Origin: Hyalella azteca
Taxonomy: Eukaryota; Arthropoda; Malacostraca; Amphipoda; Hyalellidae
Reading direction: 5' to 3'
DNA: 64,000 nucleotides
Assembly (NCBI RefSeq): GCF_000764305.2
Contig: NW_025934572.1
Coordinates: forward strand, 248,001-312,000
Part shown: piece by piece, positions 37,199 through 64,000 of the stretch
How the letters are laid out: each line of letters starts with the position of its first letter
Position numbering within the stretch: the stretch's first letter is position 1
Notes under the pieces: model-generated
Told to the model about the DNA's origin: nothing
The model's input: only the letters and a program-made list of their open reading frames with translations
Database searches by the model: none
Translations under genes and position numbers: made by a program

Positions 37199-39218
37199 TC
37201 ATCTATTTTTGTGGCTCATCAGAGAGTGAGAATTAGCTAATGAGGACAACGAGGAATCCAATTTCTTGTCAGAGGAGTTCTCATTATTCAAGAGTTTTTC
37301 ATCGCTTGAATTGTCTGTACCTGTTATCAGACTACTGGCTCTCGAAGCCAGCAGCTGAACGTCCTCGATCGCCATGTCATTATAAATGTGTGAAGCAAAC
37401 ACATCGTATATCAAGCTTATGGTATTATCATAAAGAACTCTAAAGCGAGTTGGTAAGAAATAAAAGTTAACGAGTTGTGCAGGAGGCCAAACTATCCACT
37501 CTGACACGTACATCAGCGCGCCCTTGTGTCGAAGATCTTCCGTGAAGTTAGATAACTGAGACGATATGGAGTGTGACGTATCTTTTTGAGAAGAGACCTT
37601 AGCAGAGTTTTCAGTCACATGATCAGTAAAAGCAGCAATGCATTTCCGAGAGACAGCCAAAGAGCCGAAAAATACACACAAGCAAACGGGCGAGAAAAGT
37701 ATTTGGTCAACCGCAAGTTTTTTCATTATCACTCGTAATGAACGACCGGGAAGGGCACGATCCAAGAATTGGTACCTGTAGAGACATAAAAATAATTAGT
37801 AAAACGCTAAAGACAACACTTGGAAATCAAACAGGATGTGTGACAGGCAGCCATGAACTACATAGAATGAAAAATTTTTGTCACAACCATAAAAAAAATG
37901 TAACTCAGTACTCACGGCAGTGAGTGACAGAGATCGCATTTTCTCGTGCATTAATCAGTTTTCATTGCGATTAATGCAGTGCATTAGAGCTAGAGATGTC
38001 GATCTTTGATACAGGCATGCCTGCTTCTTAAAATCGACGAAAACGTGAAGTCACGGACGGACAGACAGACAGACAGACGGACATACGGACATGGCGTGCA
38101 CAATAGTGCATTTTTTCTATTAAGAAAAAATGCGCTAAAAATTGACTCGCACACAAGATTTTCTGTCATATTAATGCTCAAATAATTGAATAAGTAAATA
38201 ACACTACGTATATCAATCCTGAAAATAATTAAAAATAGAATTATGCCCGTTGAAAACTTTTGCAATAAAATGAACTTGCCAGTAATGGCAGAGCATTCCC
38301 ACAGAAGCACCACTCGCAGTCATATTAACTGTGCGGACAACATCATAGGGGTGAACTCCAGCAGCTACAACAGCTGGCTTGCTTGAGAGCTTGTAATGTT
38401 GCTGCAACAGGTCTCCACAACCTGCAATGTAAAGAATTTTTTTTAGAAATCCTGCCGAGGTATTTCCACTGAATGTTATTTTTAAGTTGGGCCCAAATTG
38501 CAAGGGTGTACAATTTTTCAAATTCATTCGCAGTTAAGAAATTAGGATTGAAATGATTTATTAATGTTTTTAATCAAATCACCAGATAATTGGGACTAAA
38601 AAAATGACTCAATAAATCAGCAACAACATATTTTACTCAGTGAGCCAATCAAGTATGTAACAATTCCAAAAGGTTTTCTGACTTGGCACAAATCAGGAAT
38701 AGCATCCCATATTTCCCAAAAATCAAGGGTAAATAGGTAGGATTTTTTTTATATTCAATTTTAAAAATTGCTGACATAAACAAGCTAGTATTAAAAAAAA
38801 TACAGTTGATTTTCAAATAAGGCAGGCAGAAATGTGGCGCTGATCTTATCTTTAATGATAGAAATTATGGAAGGGGCATAAAACAGGTGAAATTTACTAG
38901 AAGCATGGGCAGTTTGCCTCATTCGCACATTGACAGTTGACACTAACAAGATGATATTTCAAAGAAACCATTTCATTTTTAATTCCCTGATCTGGTTCAA
39001 AATTATATTTAATATCTTAATTATAATATTGGTATCTACCTATTGGTGGTTGACGCTAGTGACTCACCTGACAAAGCCATGGAAATTGAAACATTGGTGA
39101 CCAAGAGGTACTTAGTAAAGGCATTATTGATATAGGTTTTAGTCTGAAGAACAGAACGCAGCTTCACAACATTTTCTATAGTTGGTAAAAACAGTTGCAA
39201 GGATTTGAGCTTTCCCAT
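37199..39218 (-). CDS. MPV17L2: MPV17-like protein 2 homologue (Mpv17/PMP22 family)
   Basis: Exons on the minus strand are 39218-39068, 38421-38280 and 37775-37199, giving 289 residues. The joins rebuild family blocks. Exon 1 ends in NVSISMALSG and exon 2 starts in CGDLLQQHYK. The second join restores HYWYQFLDRALPG, as in the family's HYWYxxLDR block. Further hallmarks are KKLAVDQILFSP and WPPAQLVNFYFLP followed by RFRVLY. The exon 2/3 intron is GC-AG (CATTACTG/gcaagt), the only join that keeps the frame. Family proteins are small multi-pass membrane proteins; human MPV17L2 (206 residues) is a mitochondrial inner-membrane protein linked to mitoribosome assembly. This copy has an extra Ser/Asn/Asp-rich C-terminal tail of about 55 residues. 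Assignment to the L2 branch rather than another Mpv17 paralogue rests on the LDR and VDQ blocks and is fairly secure. Confidence 0.92.
37901..38142 (+). repeat. Interspersed repeat with palindromic head, copy 2 (longest)
   Basis: Starts ACTCAGTACTCACGGCAGTG, then GCATTTTCTCG, an extra block of about 80 bp with an inner hairpin (GCATTAATC/GATTAATGC), then CGAAAACGTGAAGTCACGG, a (GACA)-rich run and a closing AAAAAATGCGCTAAA. It lies inside the second intron of the MPV17L2 homologue. GCATTTT near the start and AAAATGC near the end form a short inverted pair. Confidence 0.7.
38055..38093 (+). repeat. GACA/GACG-rich simple repeat
   Basis: GGACAGACAGACAGACAGAC followed by GGACATACGGACATGG. It is part of the interspersed repeat; shorter versions occur in the copies at 60.3 kb and 49.5 kb. 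Confidence 0.85.
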
Positions 39219-41144: not shown

Positions 41145-42280
41145 GAGTGGCCCGAGTAGCCCCATTGAACAGGGCTACTCACGACACTTGAAATAAAACT
41201 TAATTTTAAAACATTTGAAGCATGCAGAGTGTACTCATCCATTACTACAGTACTCTGAAGTCCTCCTCTTTCATTGTAGATGATGTAGAGGTAGAATAAA
41301 TGAGATTTTCTGTGATTTTTACTTGTTTTTCCTTTATTGATATGATATTACCATATACATTAATTACCGTATTATTGATGCAATATTACCGTATCTATGA
41401 ACAGGCCATTGAGCATTTCAACTACCTTGTCCACTGCAAGCTTCATATTAGCAGCCTTATAGCATTTTTTCTGTATCTGTAAGCTTACAGGACAGCTTGT
41501 AATTTCACACCATTCCAATTGGGTCAAGTGAATTCACTATGAAAAAATTAGTGAAAAAATTAGTGAAAAACATACCTGAAACAGAAAGGAATGTTTTAGT
41601 GACAACCATCATATGTTTTGGAGAAATAAATCATAGTTTAGGTCAATTACTTTTCATTCTATGGTGCCTGGTGCACAATTCTATATATGACATTCTATGC
41701 ACAATTTTGTGATGACCAACGATGCACTAATTTTTTGATAAGTGAATTTTTTTTGCTGAGCAAGATAAATGTAATATATATTCTTTGTTTTTAATCAATT
41801 TTTTTCTCAACTGGAGCCTTTGCAAACTGAGGTTCTACTGTAAATGCATTTTTGCGGGTGTCCCAAATAGCCCCGAGGGGTGTCCCAAGTAGCCCCGCCG
41901 TGCAGAAATGGCCGCAATTTTTTTTGGATTGAGGTATGTAAATTCCGCAAATAAAGTTTTCATACTGACACTTGTCTGCCACTTTTTTCTAAGCAAAATT
42001 TTTTAATATGGCAAATTATTCTTTTACTACAGAGTACAGACCTTAGCAGAAGTAACTTTTCAAAATATTGTTTTTCACCATTTTTTCAGGAATTTTTCAA
42101 AGCTAGTAAATGTAGTATTTTTGAACTTCCTTTATACTACATAGATAGGAAAAATGTTGACGTTTATGCCACTATATTTAGTTTTGCAATATTCCAATTA
42201 GTTTTGCTACTAAAACAGTTTTAGGCCGTGTCAGAGGGCTGTCTCAAGTTACCCCGCCTGTCCTGAGTAGCCCCGCCCCT
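41145..42280. repeat. Diverged repeat with GGGGCTACTCGGGACA-type motifs
   Basis: Motifs on the minus strand such as GGGGCTACTTGGGACA occur near 41148, 41867, 41884, 42241 and 42258. One is inverted near 41173. They are spaced like terminal and subterminal repeats. The boundaries are not clear. It seems a further relative of the GGGGTAA-ended elements nearby. Confidence 0.5.
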
Positions 42281-42835: not shown

Positions 42836-43047
42836 TTTTTAATATAGAAAAATTAATTTTCAATTTTAAAACAATTTATTTTGTCATTTGATTCTTGCAT
42901 TGTCTCCAACTTTATGCAAGTGTGCAAAATTTCAGATTGATAGAAATAGAATAAGTAGAAGTGTGTTAAATTTTGATCATCAGATTTGTAGCAGACAGAC
43001 AGGCAAATAAACAAGAAGTGAAGTTAAACTGTTAAAGAGAAGTGTTG
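42836..43047 (+). repeat. Older interspersed repeat (copy also at 59.3 kb)
   Basis: Shares ordered blocks with 59380-59592: TTTTCAATTTT, GCATTGTC, AAGTGTGCAAAATTTCAGAT, GATTTGTAGCAGACA, AACAAGAAGTGAA and AAAGAGAAGTGTTGTA. The inverted-repeat element at 43050 sits in its TA. Confidence 0.7.
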
Positions 43048-43049
43048 TA

Positions 43050-43437
43050 CCGTAAAATGGGGTAACTTAGACCACTTTTTTTTTTATAAATGATGCCATT
43101 TTTTTACTAGCTAAATTAAACTTGAATTGAAACATGCAAAATACAGGTCTATACTCTAGCTTCACTCACCATAAATTGCTGGCTCCTGCCTCTCATAGTC
43201 TTTATGTAATTTCAAAAAAAGTGATGGTCTTTGTTACCCCAGCTCTTGGGGTAACTTAGACCTGTCTCTTATACACATCTAGATGTGTATAAGAGACTGG
43301 TATTAGGCCTTTAATGCCCATTGACAAAATTTTTCTATGTCAAATAGTTTTTGAGTTGTGGGGGTTTTTGTTAAAAAAACGAAAAGTGGTCTAAGACTCT
43401 AAGTTACCCCGCCGGTCTAAGTTACCCCATTTTACGG
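43050..43437. mobile_element. MITE with CCGTAAAATGGGGTAACTTA inverted termini
   Basis: Both ends carry the same 24-bp terminal inverted repeat, starting CCGTAAAATGGGGTAACTTA and ending GACC. TA flanks each side (43048-43049, 43438-43439). Internal subterminal copies of GGGGTAACTTAGACC lie near 43233-43262 and, inverted, near 43400-43425. It is non-coding and non-autonomous. The interior is interrupted by Nextera junction sequence at 43262, so the true length and contiguity are uncertain. Confidence 0.8.
43262..43299. other. Nextera mate-pair junction adapter (assembly artefact)
   Basis: CTGTCTCTTATACACATCT (43262-43280), the 19-bp Tn5 mosaic end, is followed directly by AGATGTGTATAAGAGAC (43281-43297), the opposite mosaic end without its last two bases. 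This is the 38-bp junction formed when Nextera mate-pair fragments are circularised. It is laboratory sequence retained by the assembler or gap filler. Confidence 0.95.
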
Positions 43438-44220
43438 TACGTAAAAAGGAACTGATTCTAAAAAACCTCTGATTAGCCCCTATGCTTAGTATGCCTATAG
43501 GCTATGCTATAATGCTATGAGTATGAGAAGACAATTGCTGGCCCTGCTGGGCAACATACATCATACATGTAGGTATAATGTATTCAATAGAAATTAGAAT
43601 CAATACAACATACGTCCAGCGTCCAGGATCTTGAGCTCTAGAAATGTTTCTGCTTTGACACTATCACTATGAATTATTATTTATAATGAATTATAATTAT
43701 ATGAGTACCTACTGCTACTGTGCTACAGTGAGTACAGTCAGCTAGTTTATCTAACATTTGAGCTTAGACAGTAGTATAATTGAAATTTGGTACATTAAAA
43801 AATGAGGTGTTAAATAGTTTCTACTGAGCCACAGGCTCACAACCTCACAGGTGCAGGAGTTGCTTCAGTGAAATAACCGGCTACAACTTCTTGATTTATC
43901 TTGATTTATCTTTAAGCACCAGTCTTCTTGGACATAGGTGCTTTGTTCAGAGCAGGGTGTAATTTTTACTACAGCTGGTCAATAACCTAACAATTTATTG
44001 TGTGTTCATTTCTCCCAACCAAATTCGTCCTGCCGATATCTATGTTTCTGTCCGTGCATTGGTAAACAATTCAGGTCAACTAGCCAGGCCATTCAGTTCT
44101 CTGATAGGAGTTAAATAATTTAATGTGGAGTGGTAAAAGAAAACCCCCACAAGTGCCTATTCCGATTCGCGCGGGACTTTGTTGCGGTCTCCTGAAAAGT
44201 TAACTTATTGTCACGGCAAA

Positions 44221-44511
44221 CCTATCTCTTCCTAGAGTTTTGAAGCTACAGCAATGAGACATATACCATTCGATTCGCAATTAAAATATCTATCGATTCG
44301 TTGTAGTTTTTTTTGAATTTCGTTCGTTTTGAAAATATTTTGAAAAAAGGAAAATTGGGGAAAAATAGGAAAATTTTGGGAAAACTGCTCCCACATCCAC
44401 AAAAATTCGAAATTCAAAAGAAGGTACGATGAATCGATAGATATTTTAATTGAGAATCGCATGGTATATGTCTCATCGCTGTAACTTCAAAACTCCAGGA
44501 GGAGATAGATT
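44221..44511. repeat. Long foldback element, arms of about 110 bp
   Basis: The arm at 44221-44330 (GAGTTTTGAAGCTACAGC, GAGACATATACCAT, AATTAAAATATCTATCGATTC, GAATTTCG) is matched inverted at 44397-44511 with scattered changes. An AT-rich loop of about 65 bases lies between. A transcript would form a long imperfect hairpin. It is most likely a foldback/MITE relic. Confidence 0.8.
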
Positions 44512-46637
44512 TCCACAGTACCCCTTTTTTGGCCGTTTTCTAAGAATTTCATGTTTTCTTTCATTTTTCAAAAAAAATTAACATGAATAAAAGCAGTCTA
44601 TTTTTCGGTTTTGCATATGTGTACCAAGTTTTAAAGTGATCCGTCTGTAAATAGCCGAGATAAAATTTTGGCCAGACGCTCCCCTTTACAAAGCTAGTAA
44701 GATGGCAGGTTGGCAGAGCTGCTTTGCGTATTTTAAAAATATTTCATGTACAAATACTCATAACATTGCAAAAATGTAATTATGTGGTTGTGTAAATCAA
44801 GTAATAAAGAGGACTTGAAAATTACACGACTAAATAAGTGACAGTATATCAACTTGAGAAACAGCTTATTAAAATATAATGAAAAGTTGTTCTGAATACT
44901 GTACTAAATTAGGGATCGCATTCGATGGAAAATGACTCAACGGTGGATTATTGCAGCGCAGAATCTTTTAAACTTGTGCGATATATACATAATTGCATAT
45001 GAGGTTTCTGCCATGATAGAGTCCAAAGATTTTAGTAATAGCGAAATATGACTGGTGCTATTACCAAATCTCTAACTACCGAGCGTTATTCGAAGTGAGC
45101 AAGGCAGTAAATTCGGAGATGCATTGCTGGTGCCTCGTTATGTCATCCGATTTATTCACAATGAGAAAGAATTTCAGTATCTTCAGAGATACCCCTGAGT
45201 ACATCTCTAGTGGCTCCAACTAAAACATCTATTCTGTAACGTGAACATATTCTGGTTTCACTAGAACCTAAAAACATGTATTCAAACGAGATCCGTAAAT
45301 TCTCAGGAATTACGTACGCGCAAAGTACTCGAAATTTTTCTGCGCTGTCAAATTCTCTCTTCAATGAAGTTTCCTGCCTTTCGCAAGTGCAGATGACAAC
45401 AAGTGTCTCAAAATCAAATTACGACTAACATTTTCTTAGCAAACCATGAATTTTTTCAACAGTTTTGTAGCTCGATGCTTCGTAACTGCACTCAGCGATC
45501 TCGTTGCTTGCTCAAAGCAAATGACATACGTCTGCGCTCACCACAATGTCTGAAACCTATCATGAATCTTTTCATTTAAAAACCATAGCTTCAGTTTCTA
45601 CCAACCTACAACATTAGTCTGTAAATGCTCAATTTTGCCCAACATCGATATTTTTCACAAAGGTTCAGTCTCCTCTTGAGGTCATAAGATTGTCAGTTGC
45701 GGAGATTAAGTATATCTGAAACTCTTCTCTAACATAAATGTGCTGGGAATACTCGTACGCAAAACGATTTTGGTGATATCAGGATCAGTAGATAGAGTTA
45801 ATTTAATTTGATATCCGTCATGAATAACGAAGCTTTCCTAAACGCAAACTAAATAGGTAATGAAACGAACATTTCGAGGGCAAAAGATTTGCTACATGTG
45901 TTATTTTACGACAGAGGCATTGTTTACAAGAAGAAACAATTCTGCAAAGAATTTAAGAGAACTAAATAACATACAACAAAATTAACTAGCATCAGTTTAA
46001 ATGCGTCACGAAAATTGCCACAAATTTATCAACTTTTTATATTTGAACTTTTAAAAAGTGACTTAAAAATTCACGAGCTTAGAAAAACGATAAATTGACT
46101 CTAAAACAAGTCAACAGTTCCAGAGTGCGTCAGACGAGGCCTGGGACCAGTGCGCAGCAGCTGGTCTCCGAGGGAGGATGTGCAAACTTAGGGCTAGTCT
46201 AGTAATAAGATGTTAGTAACGCTCCAGTTCATCCAAACTGCGTGGCTGCTGATGACCCATACGTTGTTGAAACTAGGATTGAACTATGAATGATGTTAAA
46301 TATGATACAAATTAATTAATATTAAATTGCACCACTCATAATCCATGCATTAACAATTTTCAAAGTAGAAGCGAACCACGAGTAAAGCATATGGTAATAC
46401 TGATTACTTAGGAAAGATTTACACACGTATACAGCATCAAAAAAATAATAATAAATAATTTCAAGTCGCAGGAATAGTCAACAAAGAACCCTCTAAATGG
46501 TGTTTCTCTACACTACTTGCACGTCATAGAGCCCATGGACGGTTTTGGTTGATACTGATGACTTGCAAGTTCCAGGAATTAAAATATTCAATAAGAAGAC
46601 GCAGAGGCATCAGCAACGCAGCAGAAAGGTGCGTGAA

Positions 46638-55128: not shown

Positions 55129-58100
55129 TCATTGCCGTGGCGTTTTCTTGAACTGGACAAACTTGCGAATCTCAGCCTCCGTTTCCTGCACAGACAGAAA
55201 ACATTTACTAAAAATGACAAATATTTGTTTATATACAAAATGAAAGGGTGATCCATAGTTCTGGGTCATCATGACCCAGATTCGGACTCGATTTAAATAG
55301 TTAATGATGATAGCATCATTTTAAGCCAAGCGTTTCTATGGTACAAAAGTCAGAAAATTACGGAAAAACAGTAGGGTTAAATATTATGTAATCTTTTGAG
55401 CGCAAAAAATATGCTTAAAATTGTAAGTTAAACGTAAAAAAAGATAAAATTCCATAACTATTGAAAAGAATCATTGATGAGAATACAGGGGTTAGACAAA
55501 ATAAGGGAAACACCTGAGAAATCCACAAAATATATTCTAGTAAGGTGTAGATCGAGCTTTTGCGGCAATTACAGCCTTAAATCTCCGAGGTATTGATTCA
55601 TTAAAAATGTGAATTTTTCCAAAGGATTTTCAACTCATTTTTCAGTTAAAACTCCCTCCAGCTCTTTTCAAGACGATGGCAGCGAGAATCGAATTCTGAT
55701 TTACATCTGTAAAATCAACCAAAATACTCGATAATATTCAGGTATGGTGATTGTGGTGGCCCAATGAGGCGCTCAACTCCATTAAAATTTCTCTCGTGCC
55801 AATTCTCAACAATTTCAGCTGTATGGATAGGGGGCGAAACCGCGAAAGATAGTGTTCCTCCACTCTTCTTAAATGAACTTGGTCCTCCAAAATTCCTAAA
55901 TAGTCACGGCTGTTGATTCTTTCATGGAGAAAAATCATTGGTCCGCCGGATTTTTACGAAATAGCCCCCTAGATCATCACATATTCATTTCCGAAATAGC
56001 CCCCTAGATCATCACATATTCATTTTCGTCATGTTTTCCGGTTGGGAGGAGGCAGTTGGGGTTAAATGACTCTTTTGGCTGTCTCCAAACATAAACTCGG
56101 CCGAAAATTGGAAATAAGGTAAACGATGATTCGTCAGAGGAAATCACATTTTTCCACTGCTCGGGAACCAATTCTGGAGGTTTTACACCAATTTAAACGC
56201 TTTGGAGCATTTATTTGTATTTGAAACCTAACGTTTTCTAATTACAGTTCGTCCATAGAATCGAGATCTATTCAGCTCTCGGCGGACAGTCTTTACGGAA
56301 ACTGGGTTCTGTAGGTGTCCATTGAGGTCGGCAGTAATTTCAACAGCCGTGATATTTTGATTGTCTCTCACAGCTCGATTTAGGTAACGAAGGTCTCTCT
56401 CAGATAACTCCGACTTTCGGCCAGACCTGTGCTTGGCTGAGGACGTTTTACCTTCTCTTTCAAATGCAATAATTAATTTTGAGAAAGTACATCTAGAAAC
56501 GTCAATCATTCGGAAAGTTTCTGTCATACTAGCACCTGCCATCTGGGCACCAACAATTTTAATTTTACCACTTTGAAAGTCCTAAAGGTTTACCATTATA
56601 GGTTAGGCTATAGACACCAAAAATATATACTAATAGTATTTGTGCATGGATAAAATATCAATTAGTAGCAACAATAATCAACAAATCATAAAAATATGTA
56701 ATGTTTTCATTTTTGTAATGTATTAAAAAATTACGATATCAATCTTTGAGGCGTTTCCTTTATTTTGTCCAACCCCTGTATTTGTACATACATAACTATA
56801 GAAAAATGAGATGAAGAAACAATCGACTTCGTTCACTAGTCTCAAGTACTAGAGCTTCAGATGAAGCTATCTCGCGCCCAATATCATGTCGGGCTTCGAA
56901 AGCTGATAAATAAAGTGTTCAAAGCATATCATAGCATTTGTATTAATCGCTCTCACATATTCCAGTGCATCATCGAAAGGCGGGCATTCGTCGGGAAAAT
57001 ATATCATAGTTTGGAGTTATCAAGTTAAAAATGAAATGAAATGACGCTACATAGGGAACTAACACCAAGAAAATGATCTTACTAAAAGGCATGACTGGTA
57101 AGACTTACCAACAATAGCTGGGCTTTGTCACTGACGGAAGCATGCTTCTGACACAGCCTGAAGATGTTGGTGTACAACTGGCGGAGTTGACTGACGTCCG
57201 CTTCTGCGGAAGCTGAGACGCAGCTTTCGAAAACGGCATCAAGATGAGAATAGTCGATCACACCATTGCTAGCACTGCTCTCCTCGTCGCGCTCGCTTGA
57301 TGAAACTAGAGGATCATCTGAAGATCATCAAAGTGAGTCAGAGTAAATTATTTCGATACATGCATTTAGCAATTGTCAAGTTAACATTGTTATACGTGAT
57401 AAAAATAAAACGAAATCCAACCTGTGTCCTGCTCATGCTCCAGATCCAGCGTGAAATTTCTGGAGGTAGATGCAACTGCAGCAGAAGTGGAAGCAACTGA
57501 AAAAGTAAACGAGTTTTTAATTTTTACATCCAGTAATTTCAGGCAATGGAAGCCAGTTATAGTAAACAAATTCCACTCAAAATTAACATGAGGATAATGG
57601 AAGATACAAATACGTCATTCGGGATGATGCAAGCAAGATCTACAGAATAGTTCATAAGAAAAGCGTAACCAACGTCAAGAACCAGAGACTTCTCATTAAA
57701 ATTCACAATCGGTAGTAATACAGCACCACAATGAATTCAGCTAGATGAATGTTTCATACATGACAAAGTATTTCATAACAGCAGCAACATGGGTAAGTGT
57801 TGCTAGAGTTCATGTTCATGAACTCAAGTTAAGTCCAAGCTAGAACAGGAAGCAAAGAAACCTGTTACTTTGCATTCAATAGACCATGACAAATTGCAGC
57901 CACCACAGCGTTGTAATATAATGAACCATACCTTGCGCAGAGGGTGTGTCAGCGGCGCCCGTCGTGGTGGATGAAGCGAGAGTAGATTGCACAGGGACGG
58001 AGGCGGAGGCCTCGACGTCATCACTCAGCTCGCCGTTGCACAGCTGCATTGCACACTTTTCAGGCGCCTGCACGTACAAAAGAACATTTGGGACTCCGTT

Positions 58101-61100: not shown

Positions 61101-63636
61101 AGTTCTCACTCTAGGATCGACTTCAGCCAGAGGTCTGTGAGTGGTCGCCAGAAGCAGCACCGGAGTGGAGGGTTTCAGGTGTTCCAGAAGTGACAGGAAG
61201 GTCGCCCGGATGGACTCGCCCGTTGACTCAAACCAGCAATCCACGCGAGGCATAAAAATTATTGATGGAGGACGTGAACTCGCTTCGTGGAATATCTGTT
61301 GACAAAAAAACCTTCATGAGATATATAATAAGAAACGAGTTTAGATCCTAACTAAGATGGAGTGAGCACATCAAATGGAATATCGAATAAAATTTACTAT
61401 AATTAAGGAATTGAAGAGTACCGGTATCCCTTTTTTATCCAAAATGATTAAGTGAACACTTCAGTTTCATTTGTTTAAACGGACAACAATGCATAATCGC
61501 CGATAAAGAAATATGCATGCGGCTAGACAACAAGCTCACTAAGTGACATCAATAAACCGTACTTGCGTGACAGCCTCCTCAGGAGTTCGAGAGGAGTTAA
61601 CATAGAGCGATGCAAGGTCGAGTACGTGTGCAGGCACGCGTTCCATGGCGTGTATGATAGCCGGGCCCAAATCACTGCTCTGCCCCTGATCACCGTTGCC
61701 TGATATCAACAGGCGTGGTCTGTAAGTCAAGCTCGAGTAGAGCACGCGACGATGACCGCTGTTGTTTGGAGTCAGGCCATGTGGGAAACTCTGCAAGGAA
61801 AACTCAAGTCATGCCGTCGCCCTCCCAATTAAAAGTAAAAAAACTTTCACTTTGGTTCAGCGGTTTTGAAATGTGTTATAGATTATAATGATCACAATAT
61901 AGAGTTAAAGGAACAAAATATTATTAAAAAATAATGCTGGTCCTTGAATCCTAAGGCCAGGTCAGTTTCATACTTTATGAGATCATTCGCAATATACCTA
62001 AATATCAAAAGAAATAAATTATAGTGCAATAAAACTATTTGCTAAAAAATACACTTGACGTACTTGAGATAAGTGGTGCAATATTTTTTGCAACGTCGCC
62101 TGGAATAGTGGCCGAACTTCAGGTCGAAGTCGTTCCCCGACGTTGCCTCGCGATCTCTGCGCCGCGGGCACGATGCGGCCCAGAGCGCTGCGGAAGTGAT
62201 GGAGTCGCACCTGAAGCATCAAAATTGAAACAGAATTACTGTACAGGAAAAATTTTGAAACAGAATTACTGTACAGGAAAAATTTTGAAACAGAATTACT
62301 GTACAGGAAAAATGAAGTTTTTCAACACGGATAATAGGGTTAGAAAATCTTTAAGTATGGGAGTTGAAGGGCACAACATTCATAACAGAATAAACTGCCA
62401 AGAAAGATTACGAACTGTCTCACTTAGGAAAGACGTTAAGTTAATATTTCTAAATGATATCCTAACACTGTTACATGGGGATAGAGGCACATACAAAAAT
62501 GATGTTGATGATCATATCATCCAAATAGATGGTGTAAAAAAAATTTCCAAGACACAATGTTTGGTCTTTTATACTATGAAATGCCGTATTAATAAATTCA
62601 ATTATACTTGGCATCAAGGTACAGTAGCTCAGCATAAAAATAGTTTAAAATATAATTTAAAAAAATGAAGTGGCAGACACTTCAGTTTCGTAAAGGCCAC
62701 TTACGTTGATAGAATTGACATCAAGCTGAAGTTTGACGGTGGACTCGTAGACTTGCGGGTAACGTTCACGAAGACTGGCAAGGACGGCCTCGCAGCACAT
62801 ACTCTTGAGGTCAGCTCCGCAGTACCCCGATGTCTGATCCGCTAGGTAATTCAGCAGCTTATCGGTCGGCGGAGGTTGCCACTTGCTCGTGTGCAGGGAT
62901 AAAATGTGCTTGCGAGCCTGCAAATGATTTGCAATATGATAATGCAAATGAATTGAGTGACAATTCAGATGAAAAATAATTATAACATATTTTCAACTTT
63001 AGGGGTGAAATACATGAAAACATAAAAAAAAACTTTTCCTCAACAAAATAATGTACTCCGGCATTTCCTTACAAAAATACAGAAATTTCTCTTGATTCGA
63101 GCACTACCTAGATTGAGAATTTTCAACACAAAGAAATTTTATCATCTGGTGAACGTATATATTACAAATTAGTGCATATCTAGTTTGAACATCAATCCAT
63201 AAATACAACTTAGCCTTTATTTGAATCCAGTAAATAAACTGCCCCACTTAAACATTTTTACAAATCTATCCAACTAAGAGAACGAATTATGTTATACAGT
63301 TAATCCCTTCTTTTGATAACCCACACGAAATACTAGATTTATAAAACGTAATATTACACTTTATGTACCGCAATTTCTCAGACTTGCCTGGAGAGACGGC
63401 AAAGGGAAGCAGAGTTCTCGATCAAACCTCCCAGGCCTCCTGAGTGCTGGGTCGATAGCCTCAATCCTGTTGGTAGCACCGATGACGATTATCTCCCCCC
63501 GCGAGTCCAGGCCATCCATCAGGGCCAGCAATGTGGACACGATGCTCGAGTGTATTTGGTCTTGTCGAGACGATCTCACGGGAGCGAGACCGTCTATCTC
63601 GTCAAAAAAGATCACGGACGGACGCAGCTGGTACGC
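55129..63636 (-). CDS. ATAD2: ATPase family AAA domain-containing protein 2 (ATAD2/ATAD2B), C-terminal 809 residues; 5' end outside window
   Basis: Fourteen minus-strand exons: 63636-63388, 62917-62705, 62210-62064, 61790-61563, 61295-61110, 60825-60706, 60236-60067, 59798-59602, 59058-58874, 58676-58419, 58067-57932, 57496-57422, 57317-57109, 55185-55129 (TGA). Every join keeps frame. The first exon holds the AAA1 Walker B motif (FFDEIDGLAP), sensor GATNR and RRPGRFDRE; the Walker A exon lies beyond 64000. A degenerate second AAA domain follows, with ISGNGDQGQSSDLGP replacing a normal P-loop. Next come the bromodomain (FTEPVD, PDYRSI, MDLETM, acetyl-lysine-binding Asn in SNALEYN), a basic KRKKRRYKW block, a Ser/Thr/acidic linker and a C-terminal helical segment (YTNIFRLC). 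The family are nuclear chromatin factors that bind acetylated histone H4 and support histone turnover and transcription. Vertebrates have ATAD2 and ATAD2B; a single invertebrate gene cannot be assigned to one. The first intron is GC-AG (CTCCAG/gcaagt). Confidence 0.97.
55484..56780 (-). mobile_element. Tc1-like transposon, degenerate
   Basis: The element is 55486-56778 (1,293 bp), flanked by TA on both sides. Its terminal inverted repeats start CAGGGGTTAGACAAAATAAG on the left and CAGGGGTTGGACAAAATAAA on the right. The length is close to that of standard Tc1 elements. It sits in the last intron of ATAD2, in the same orientation as the gene. Confidence 0.9.
55700..56582 (-). pseudogene. Tc1-like transposase pseudogene
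   Basis: The N-terminal part (56582 to about 56228) encodes paired helix-turn-helix sequence: a KIVGAQMAGASM start region, then RCTFSKLI, the linker HRSGRKSELSERD, and ITAVEITADLN in the second HTH. A stop follows VIRKR. Later pieces are in other frames: RINSRDYLGILE and PPQSPYLNIIEYFG. The last corresponds to the family block WPSQSPDLNPIENLWG, with the D of SPDLN changed to Y, and is followed directly by a stop. Frameshifts and stops make it non-functional. Confidence 0.88.
57939..58000. other. GC-rich low-complexity part of an ATAD2 linker exon
   Basis: Exon 58067-57932 is clearly GC-richer than its surroundings and encodes an Ala/Ser/Thr/Val-rich linker (TLASSTTTGAADTPSAQ). It has open frames on both strands; only the minus-strand frame joins in phase with its neighbours. 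Confidence 0.6.
58874..60236 (-). other. ATAD2 bromodomain region (three exons)
   Basis: Encoded by exons 60236-60067, 59798-59602 and 59058-58874, with phase 2 and phase 1 introns inside the domain. The order is a leading coiled helix (SEKELQRLIELEESKLRELR), helix Z (RIFLRQICAKLA), the FITFTEPVD shelf, PDYRSIITKPMDL, YTCAQDFLNDIELICSNALEYN with the conserved Asn, and HIRHSACALVDTAHTLI as the last helix. The RVF shelf of human ATAD2 reads ITF here. The residues needed for acetyl-lysine reading are present, so the domain looks functional. Confidence 0.93.
59300..59592 (+). repeat. Older interspersed repeat (copy also at 42.8 kb, fragment at 39.96 kb)
   Basis: TTTTTAAAGACAACACT and GATGTTACACATGT are shared with 39955-40010; AAGTGTGCAAAATTTCAGAT and GATTTGTAGCAGACA are shared with 42836-43047. 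It fills most of an ATAD2 intron and stops about 10 bases from the donor of the bromodomain exon 59798-59602. Confidence 0.7.
60261..60395 (+). repeat. Interspersed repeat with ACTCACTGCAGTGAGT palindrome, copy 4
   Basis: ACTCAGTACTCACTGCAGTG, GCATTTTCTCGTCGACGAAA, ATGAAGTCACG, GGACGGACATG and a closing GAGAAAATGCGCTAAA, in the same order as copy 2 but lacking its inner block of about 80 bp. It lies in an ATAD2 intron. Confidence 0.75.
61110..61790 (-). other. ATAD2 second, degenerate AAA domain
   Basis: Exons 61790-61563 and 61295-61110. The glycine-rich strand-turn RLLISGNGDQGQSSDLG aligns with the human ATAD2 VGEPGFGQGSHL segment and lacks the GK(T/S) of a P-loop. The Walker B position reads IIFMPRVDCW, with no DE pair. 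As in the human protein, this domain should be structural rather than catalytic. Confidence 0.85.
62227..62313 (+). repeat. 30-bp direct repeat, three units
   Basis: Three consecutive units of GAAACAGAATTACTGTACAG plus GAAAAATTTT, starting at 62227, 62257 and 62287. Each contains the palindrome CTGTACAG. They lie within 20-100 bases of the acceptor of ATAD2 exon 62210-62064. Confidence 0.9.
62312..62668 (+). other. Open frame of 118 codons antisense in an ATAD2 intron, origin unknown
   Basis: From the ATG at 62312 the plus strand is open to a TGA at 62666-62668. The product is Lys/Asn/His-rich and has no stop over 118 codons in AT-rich DNA. The frame also stays open upstream through the three 30-bp repeats. 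Its composition looks protein-like (for example IQIDGVKKISKTQCLVFYTM), but I recognise no domain. It fills most of the 494-bp intron. It could be an inserted coding fragment (transposon or other) or chance; I do not call it a gene. Confidence 0.35.
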
Positions 63637-63680
63637 CTGGTAACAAATTGAACGCTGTATAAACACAGTACGAGAAGTTA

Positions 63681-64000
63681 CCGTCAAACGGGGTAAAAAG
63701 GGACGGGCGGGGTAAAAAAGGGACGGGCGGGGTAAAAAAGGGACGGGCGGGGTAAAAAAGGGACGGGCGGGGTAAAAAAGGGACGGGCGGGGTAAAAAAG
63801 GACGGACGGGGTAAAAAGGGACAGTCCTCCCACATTTTGTAGAAATGTAGTAGCAGCTAAACTAATAAAAAAGGGACGGGCGGGGTAAAAAGGGACGGAC
63901 GGGGTAAAAAGGGACAGTCCTCCCACATTTTGTAGAAATGTAGTAGCAGCTAAACTAATAAAAATATTGCAAAACTAAAAAGAGTGGTGTAAAGTTTAAC
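63681..64000. repeat. Tandem array with GGGGTAAAAAAGGGACGGGC units, start of a TA-flanked element
   Basis: The terminus CCGTCAAACGGGGTAAAAAG follows TA at 63679-63680. About six to seven 20-bp units of GGGGTAAAAAAGGGACGGGC follow. Then a block containing CAGTCCTCCCACATTTTGTA, GAAATGTAGTAGCAGC and TAAACTAATAAAA is present twice (about 63823-63872 and 63913-63964). The repeat runs towards the right edge. It lies in the ATAD2 intron between the missing Walker A exon and the Walker B exon. Confidence 0.8.

Follow-up and report, generated by a model that had tools for sequence, protein, structure and literature searches.

The window analysed here, 64,000 nt of Hyalella azteca contig NW_025934572.1, contains a TA-flanked, MITE-like repeat (43050–43437) whose two arms are separated by a 38 bp palindrome. 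The question is whether this palindrome belongs to the element, or to the chromosome at all, or whether it was left there by the sequencing library. The evidence set out below makes it practically certain that the 38 bases are a synthetic adapter artefact and not genomic DNA.

Junction sequence

The palindrome consists of CTGTCTCTTATACACATCT (43262–43280), followed immediately 3′ by AGATGTGTATAAGAGACTG (43281–43299). An ungapped alignment with the canonical 38 bp Nextera mate-pair junction gives 37 of 38 shared bases, and the sole mismatch is at 43298, which is T instead of A. The protocol passages of the NextClip paper (PMC3928519) describe a 19 bp biotinylated adaptor at each fragment end, followed by circularisation, and a program that seeks the joined adaptors as 38 bases, forward plus reverse complement. 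The adapter description in PMC7357533 gives the identical 38-mer as the circularisation adapter, and the oligonucleotide passages of PMC4248319 print the mosaic end and state that wild-type ends were swapped in vitro for mosaic ends. The window sequence is like a Nextera mate-pair junction in its 38 bp length, its mosaic end joined to the reverse complement and the Tn5-type signature on its flanks; it differs in the one substitution and in being located in an assembly rather than in a read.

The initial annotation had described the junction as missing its final AG. This detail needs correction, as all 38 positions align without a gap. Because the host element continues with its right arm from 43300 (GTATTAGGCC), and because a sister copy (L181) has the complete canonical 38-mer at the same element position, also followed by GTATTAGGCC, one base was substituted and none was lost. 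The substitution may stem from an error in a read or in the consensus. With up to three mismatches allowed, the 19 bp mosaic end has only two matches in the window, one exact on the plus strand and one with a single mismatch on the minus strand; shuffled windows yield a mean of 0.04 matches. No N is found anywhere in the 64 kb. Coordinates of the junction and of the surrounding element are listed in Table 1.

Table 1. Features of the junction and its host element (window coordinates)
Feature	Position	Strand	Basis or property
Left terminal inverted repeat, 27 nt including GTA flank	43047..43073	+	100% complementary to right repeat
Left TA flank, likely target-site duplication	43048..43049	.	Window sequence, copy alignment
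Left arm, MITE-like host element	43050..43261	+	Nearly whole in 40/40 scored places, window included
9 bp left of junction, read outward, GTCTAAGTT	43253..43261	-	Score 3.70, 99.9th percentile of interior 9-mers
Nextera mate-pair junction, 38 bp, 37 identical	43262..43299	.	Substitution at 43298
Tn5 mosaic end, 19/19 exact	43262..43280	+	Tn5MErev oligo as printed in the oligonucleotide passages of PMC4248319
Second Tn5 mosaic end, inverted, 18/19	43281..43299	-	19-mer scan
9 bp right of junction, GTATTAGGC	43300..43308	+	Score 4.73, above all interior 9-mers (to three decimals)
Right arm, MITE-like host element	43300..43437	+	Genome search and copy alignment
Right terminal inverted repeat, 27 nt including TAC flank	43414..43440	-	100% complementary to left repeat
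Right TA flank, likely target-site duplication	43438..43439	.	Window sequence, copy alignment

Occurrence in this assembly and elsewhere

The assembly searched (G000) comprises 518,993,365 bases in 4890 contigs. Matches to the 19-mer with up to two mismatches number 7138 forward and 7039 reverse, and the reversed control has one match in each orientation. The initial annotation had considered a natural origin not credible and had suggested a screen of the whole assembly for the 38 bp junction. That screen, now run, yields 5585 exact copies, about one per 93 kb, against none for the reversed 38-mer, and the judgement on origin is upheld. Since the 19-mer density is about one per 73 kb, one junction in a 64 kb window is to be expected and is unremarkable.

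The same exact 38-mer is also present in assemblies of bacteria, viruses and plasmids. In GTDB species assemblies it occurs in at least 120 stretches; among the matches listed (80 GTDB stretches) are the genera Enterococcus, Collinsella, Scytonema, Pseudomonas and Streptomyces. Seven viral stretches carry it, as do five plasmid records (Klebsiella two, Serratia, Cronobacter and Escherichia), so that the artefact is present in the plasmid collection as well. Megablast searches found the 38-mer neither in 20,395 E. coli records nor in 50,697 phage records. One record titled as an Allomuricauda chromosome (CP051244.1, L040) has two 38 bp junctions whose starts are 127 bp apart.

Flanks of the junctions

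A set of 51 junctions was examined after de-duplication, from 38 regions at the first-listed 19-mer places and from three more loci; it is not a random sample. The full 38 bp is present at 44 of the 51, and the other seven are cut or different on one side. A single N, a mark that a gap closer may leave, is found within 100 bp at 14/51 junctions, compared with 4.1% of random 238 bp segments from the same loci; 37/51 have no single N within that distance. A word of at least 15 nt is common to both 150 bp flanks at 10/51 junctions, versus 2 of 2528 cross-locus flank pairs. At several of these word-sharing junctions a tandem repeat runs on across the junction, as judged by eye, and the flanks otherwise vary between sites. 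Together, the single-N enrichment and the shared words would be the trace expected from gap closing in hard repeats. As background only, 154 junctions in 127 bacterial and viral loci, duplicates included and with no random control, show a single N within 150 bp at 17/154, an N run at 18/154 and a word of at least 15 nt across the junction at 40/154.

The Tn5 target is nine base pairs in length. Flanks were read outward from the mosaic end, and there were 95 distinct flanks from this genome and 337 from the bacterial and viral loci. The flanks of this genome show a 9 bp pattern, with G at 0.45 and T at 0.05 in position 1, A/T at 0.82 in position 5 and C at 0.44 in position 9. The junctions in bacterial and viral assemblies have a like preference: the log-odds of the two sets correlate with r = 0.87 over positions 1–9 and 0.60 over positions 10–18, and with 0.11 and 0.25 farther out. 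Scored with the bacterial/viral matrix, the flanks of this genome average 1.01 beside the junction versus −1.20 (sd 1.94) farther out (Mann–Whitney p = 1.8e-23 for junction-adjacent against outer scores, indicative only because the 9-mers overlap). The 9 bp flank signature is attributed to in vitro tagmentation.

Host element and its copies

The host element, which may be Tc1/mariner-like, shares with MITE-like DNA transposon derivatives that have TA target sites its terminal inverted repeats, TA flanks, many copies and variable interior. A genome search with the element gave 3641 first-look candidates, the best 40 of which were scored. Beside the window, these comprise nine whole-query matches, eight with the left arm plus junction and 22 with the left arm only; as the search query included the junction and the best candidates alone were scored, these counts are not frequencies. 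Copies were retrieved for alignment from all nine whole-query matches, from seven of the eight with left arm and junction, and from four of the 22 with the left arm only. TA is found at both ends in nine of ten full-length copies, and CA at both ends in the tenth, L187 (alignment, by eye).

The junction is missing in eight of the nine other full-length copies (L182–L189). It is present in the ninth, L181, precisely between the arms. The natural sequence between the arms is 22–79 nt in the seven measured copies among L182–L189; L188 does not have the right-arm start used to measure interior length. In four further copies (L197–L200) the natural interior is longer, and the junction is absent. 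A different arrangement is seen in L190–L196, which have the same left arm and the junction (with one mismatch in L192), followed by differing right sides. The right side of L192 corresponds to part of the L200 interior in inverted orientation (88% over 155 nt), after which the start of another mosaic end appears.

The two joins were also counted separately. The left arm meets a mosaic end at the exact point seen in the window in 11 places (nine exact, two with one mismatch). A mosaic end meets the right arm in 19 places (11 exact, eight with one mismatch), a figure obtained with a right-arm word of ten bases, so that a few with one mismatch may be fortuitous and arms two or more bases off escape. 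Both joins occur together at only two of 28 places, C1164, which is the window, and C3408, which is L181. On the strength of the copy alignment and these counts, the warning in the initial annotation that the interior of the element at 43050–43437 is unreliable can be maintained.

Three observations concern the element and its surroundings. Within the right arm, at 43390–43412, the window copy is about 8 bases longer than its sister copies, through a local TCTAAG duplication. A stretch of 13 nt at 42240–42290 matches the element's inner repeat exactly; this hints at a decayed relative close by and may be chance. At 44210–44520 a foldback (a long inverted repeat, by eye) is probably another dispersed repeat, and the right flank of the L190 junction resembles its left arm.

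Natural sequence or library adapter

Might the junction be a natural part of the element? Its recurrence at the same point in several copies of a transposable element invites this reading, and also the wider one in which the palindrome is natural DNA that either belongs to the element or is left over from a Tn5/IS50-like transposon. The first was considered and rejected: as the left and right joins co-occur at only 2/28 places, the junction is not built into the element, and the points of insertion score as strong Tn5 targets. The strong target scores at both points would account for the adapter at the same points in other copies. The wider reading is exceedingly improbable. It is opposed by the absence of the palindrome from eight of the nine other full-length copies and the rarity of both joins together, by the 5585 exact copies with flanks that differ between sites in the sample, and by the identical 38-mer in unrelated bacterial assemblies. 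The mosaic end itself, according to the oligonucleotide passages of PMC4248319, replaced the wild-type ends in vitro. The IS50 outside and inside ends had no match in 308 kb of DNA from this genome. It is next to impossible that the palindrome is a natural sequence, dispersed and physically present in the chromosomes, that happens to equal the engineered mosaic-end dimer.

Paired-end and mate-pair Nextera libraries use the same mosaic end, and the adapter could also have come from read-through into ordinary paired-end adapters. This is highly improbable here, in view of the arrangement of a mosaic end followed by its own reverse complement, complete at 44/51 sampled sites. The paired-end tails printed in the oligonucleotide passages of PMC4248319 are found nowhere in 71 sequences from this genome (308,364 bases, some overlapping). 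The identification proposed in the initial annotation, that 43262–43299 is a Nextera mate-pair junction, is sustained by the 37/38 match, the 5585 copies in the assembly, the presence in unrelated assemblies and the 9 bp target signature.

How the junction may have entered the assembly

The proposed course begins in the library. In a Nextera mate-pair library, Tn5 transposase places the 19 bp mosaic end on both ends of kilobase-long fragments, and circularisation brings the two mosaic ends together, head to head. Untrimmed mate-pair reads may then have entered the assembly or the gap closing. If this copy of the element had a gap in its interior, two sets of reads, one entering the adapter from the left arm and the other from the right arm, could have been merged via the palindromic 38 bp, which would have replaced the true interior of the window copy, now presumably lost. 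In an element with so many copies, joins would have formed independently of one another at its two strong Tn5 target points. As a whole explanation, an adapter artefact from untrimmed mate-pair reads that closed a gap in this element copy is very probable. Against it stand the 37/51 sampled junctions that lack a nearby single N, the lack of any N in the window, the missing partner stretches of the L169 and L149 junctions described below, and the junction at the identical point of the element in 11 places, which needs the explanation by target preference. One narrow search of the literature on untrimmed junctions at gap filling found nothing, a result that says little about the literature.

The initial annotation had warned that the sequence on either side might derive from fragment ends several kilobases apart. 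The two sides would then be opposite ends of a single circularised fragment, arranged as end, junction and start, and would not be neighbours in the genome. Such a geometry is known from the IMG/VR contig UViG_2617271242_000003 (loci L010 and L012), where it is found at 3/3 joins. There, by comparison with Lactobacillus phage P2.4, one 38 bp junction links points about 4.4 kb apart; by comparison with phage iA2, a second 38 bp junction and a single 19 bp end link points 2.5 and 3.2 kb apart. In all three, both partners lie on one strand, with a downstream end leading into an upstream start. For another viral locus, L013, no close phage relative was found. The inverted interior piece to the right of the L192 junction indicates that junctions in this assembly too can join wrongly, and the arms are common to many copies, so that the two sides of the window junction could stem from two different copies.

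The window junction differs from the viral contig, with its links over 2.5–4.4 kb, in that a left and a right arm of one element face each other across it, correctly ordered and oriented. The terminal inverted repeats are 100% complementary and TA stands at either end, an agreement that two random fragment ends would seldom produce. For two other junctions (L169 and L149), stretches of 35 and 39 nt lie between an N and the junction, and the other fragment end that the circularised-fragment geometry predicts was not found in about 10 kb rightward. A search for copies of the flanks of the window junction, over the window and 10 kb on each side, returned short matches only, the longest outside the element being 31 nt at 81%. 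A join of distant ends is unlikely here. Closure of a gap in place at 43262–43299 is the probable event, because the flanks have the arrangement of a single element's two arms, and because the sampled junctions are enriched at gap-like places.

Window neighbours and consequences

Other parts of the window probably contain coding sequence. An open frame at 37199–37795 on the minus strand matches the Mpv17/PMP22 family (E 1.7e-16) and is probably an exon. Two open frames at 62657–63861, also on the minus strand, match the AAA lid and the AAA ATPase domain and are probably exons of one AAA gene. A fragment at 56228–56581 on the minus strand gives a sub-threshold match to a Tc3-type transposase helix-turn-helix (E 3e-06, below the Pfam cut-off).

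Each of the 5585 exact junctions is likely a false join or one with bases missing. No trust should be placed in gene models, repeat boundaries or short-range synteny across a junction. Repeat annotation has probably suffered most, as the sampled junctions are enriched beside single Ns and between repeats of the same kind; an arm plus adapter could be mistaken for a subfamily by a repeat caller. Positions 43262–43299 should be masked. The 38 bp themselves yield no biology; they are an ordinary artefact, but one that amounts to a quality warning for the whole assembly.
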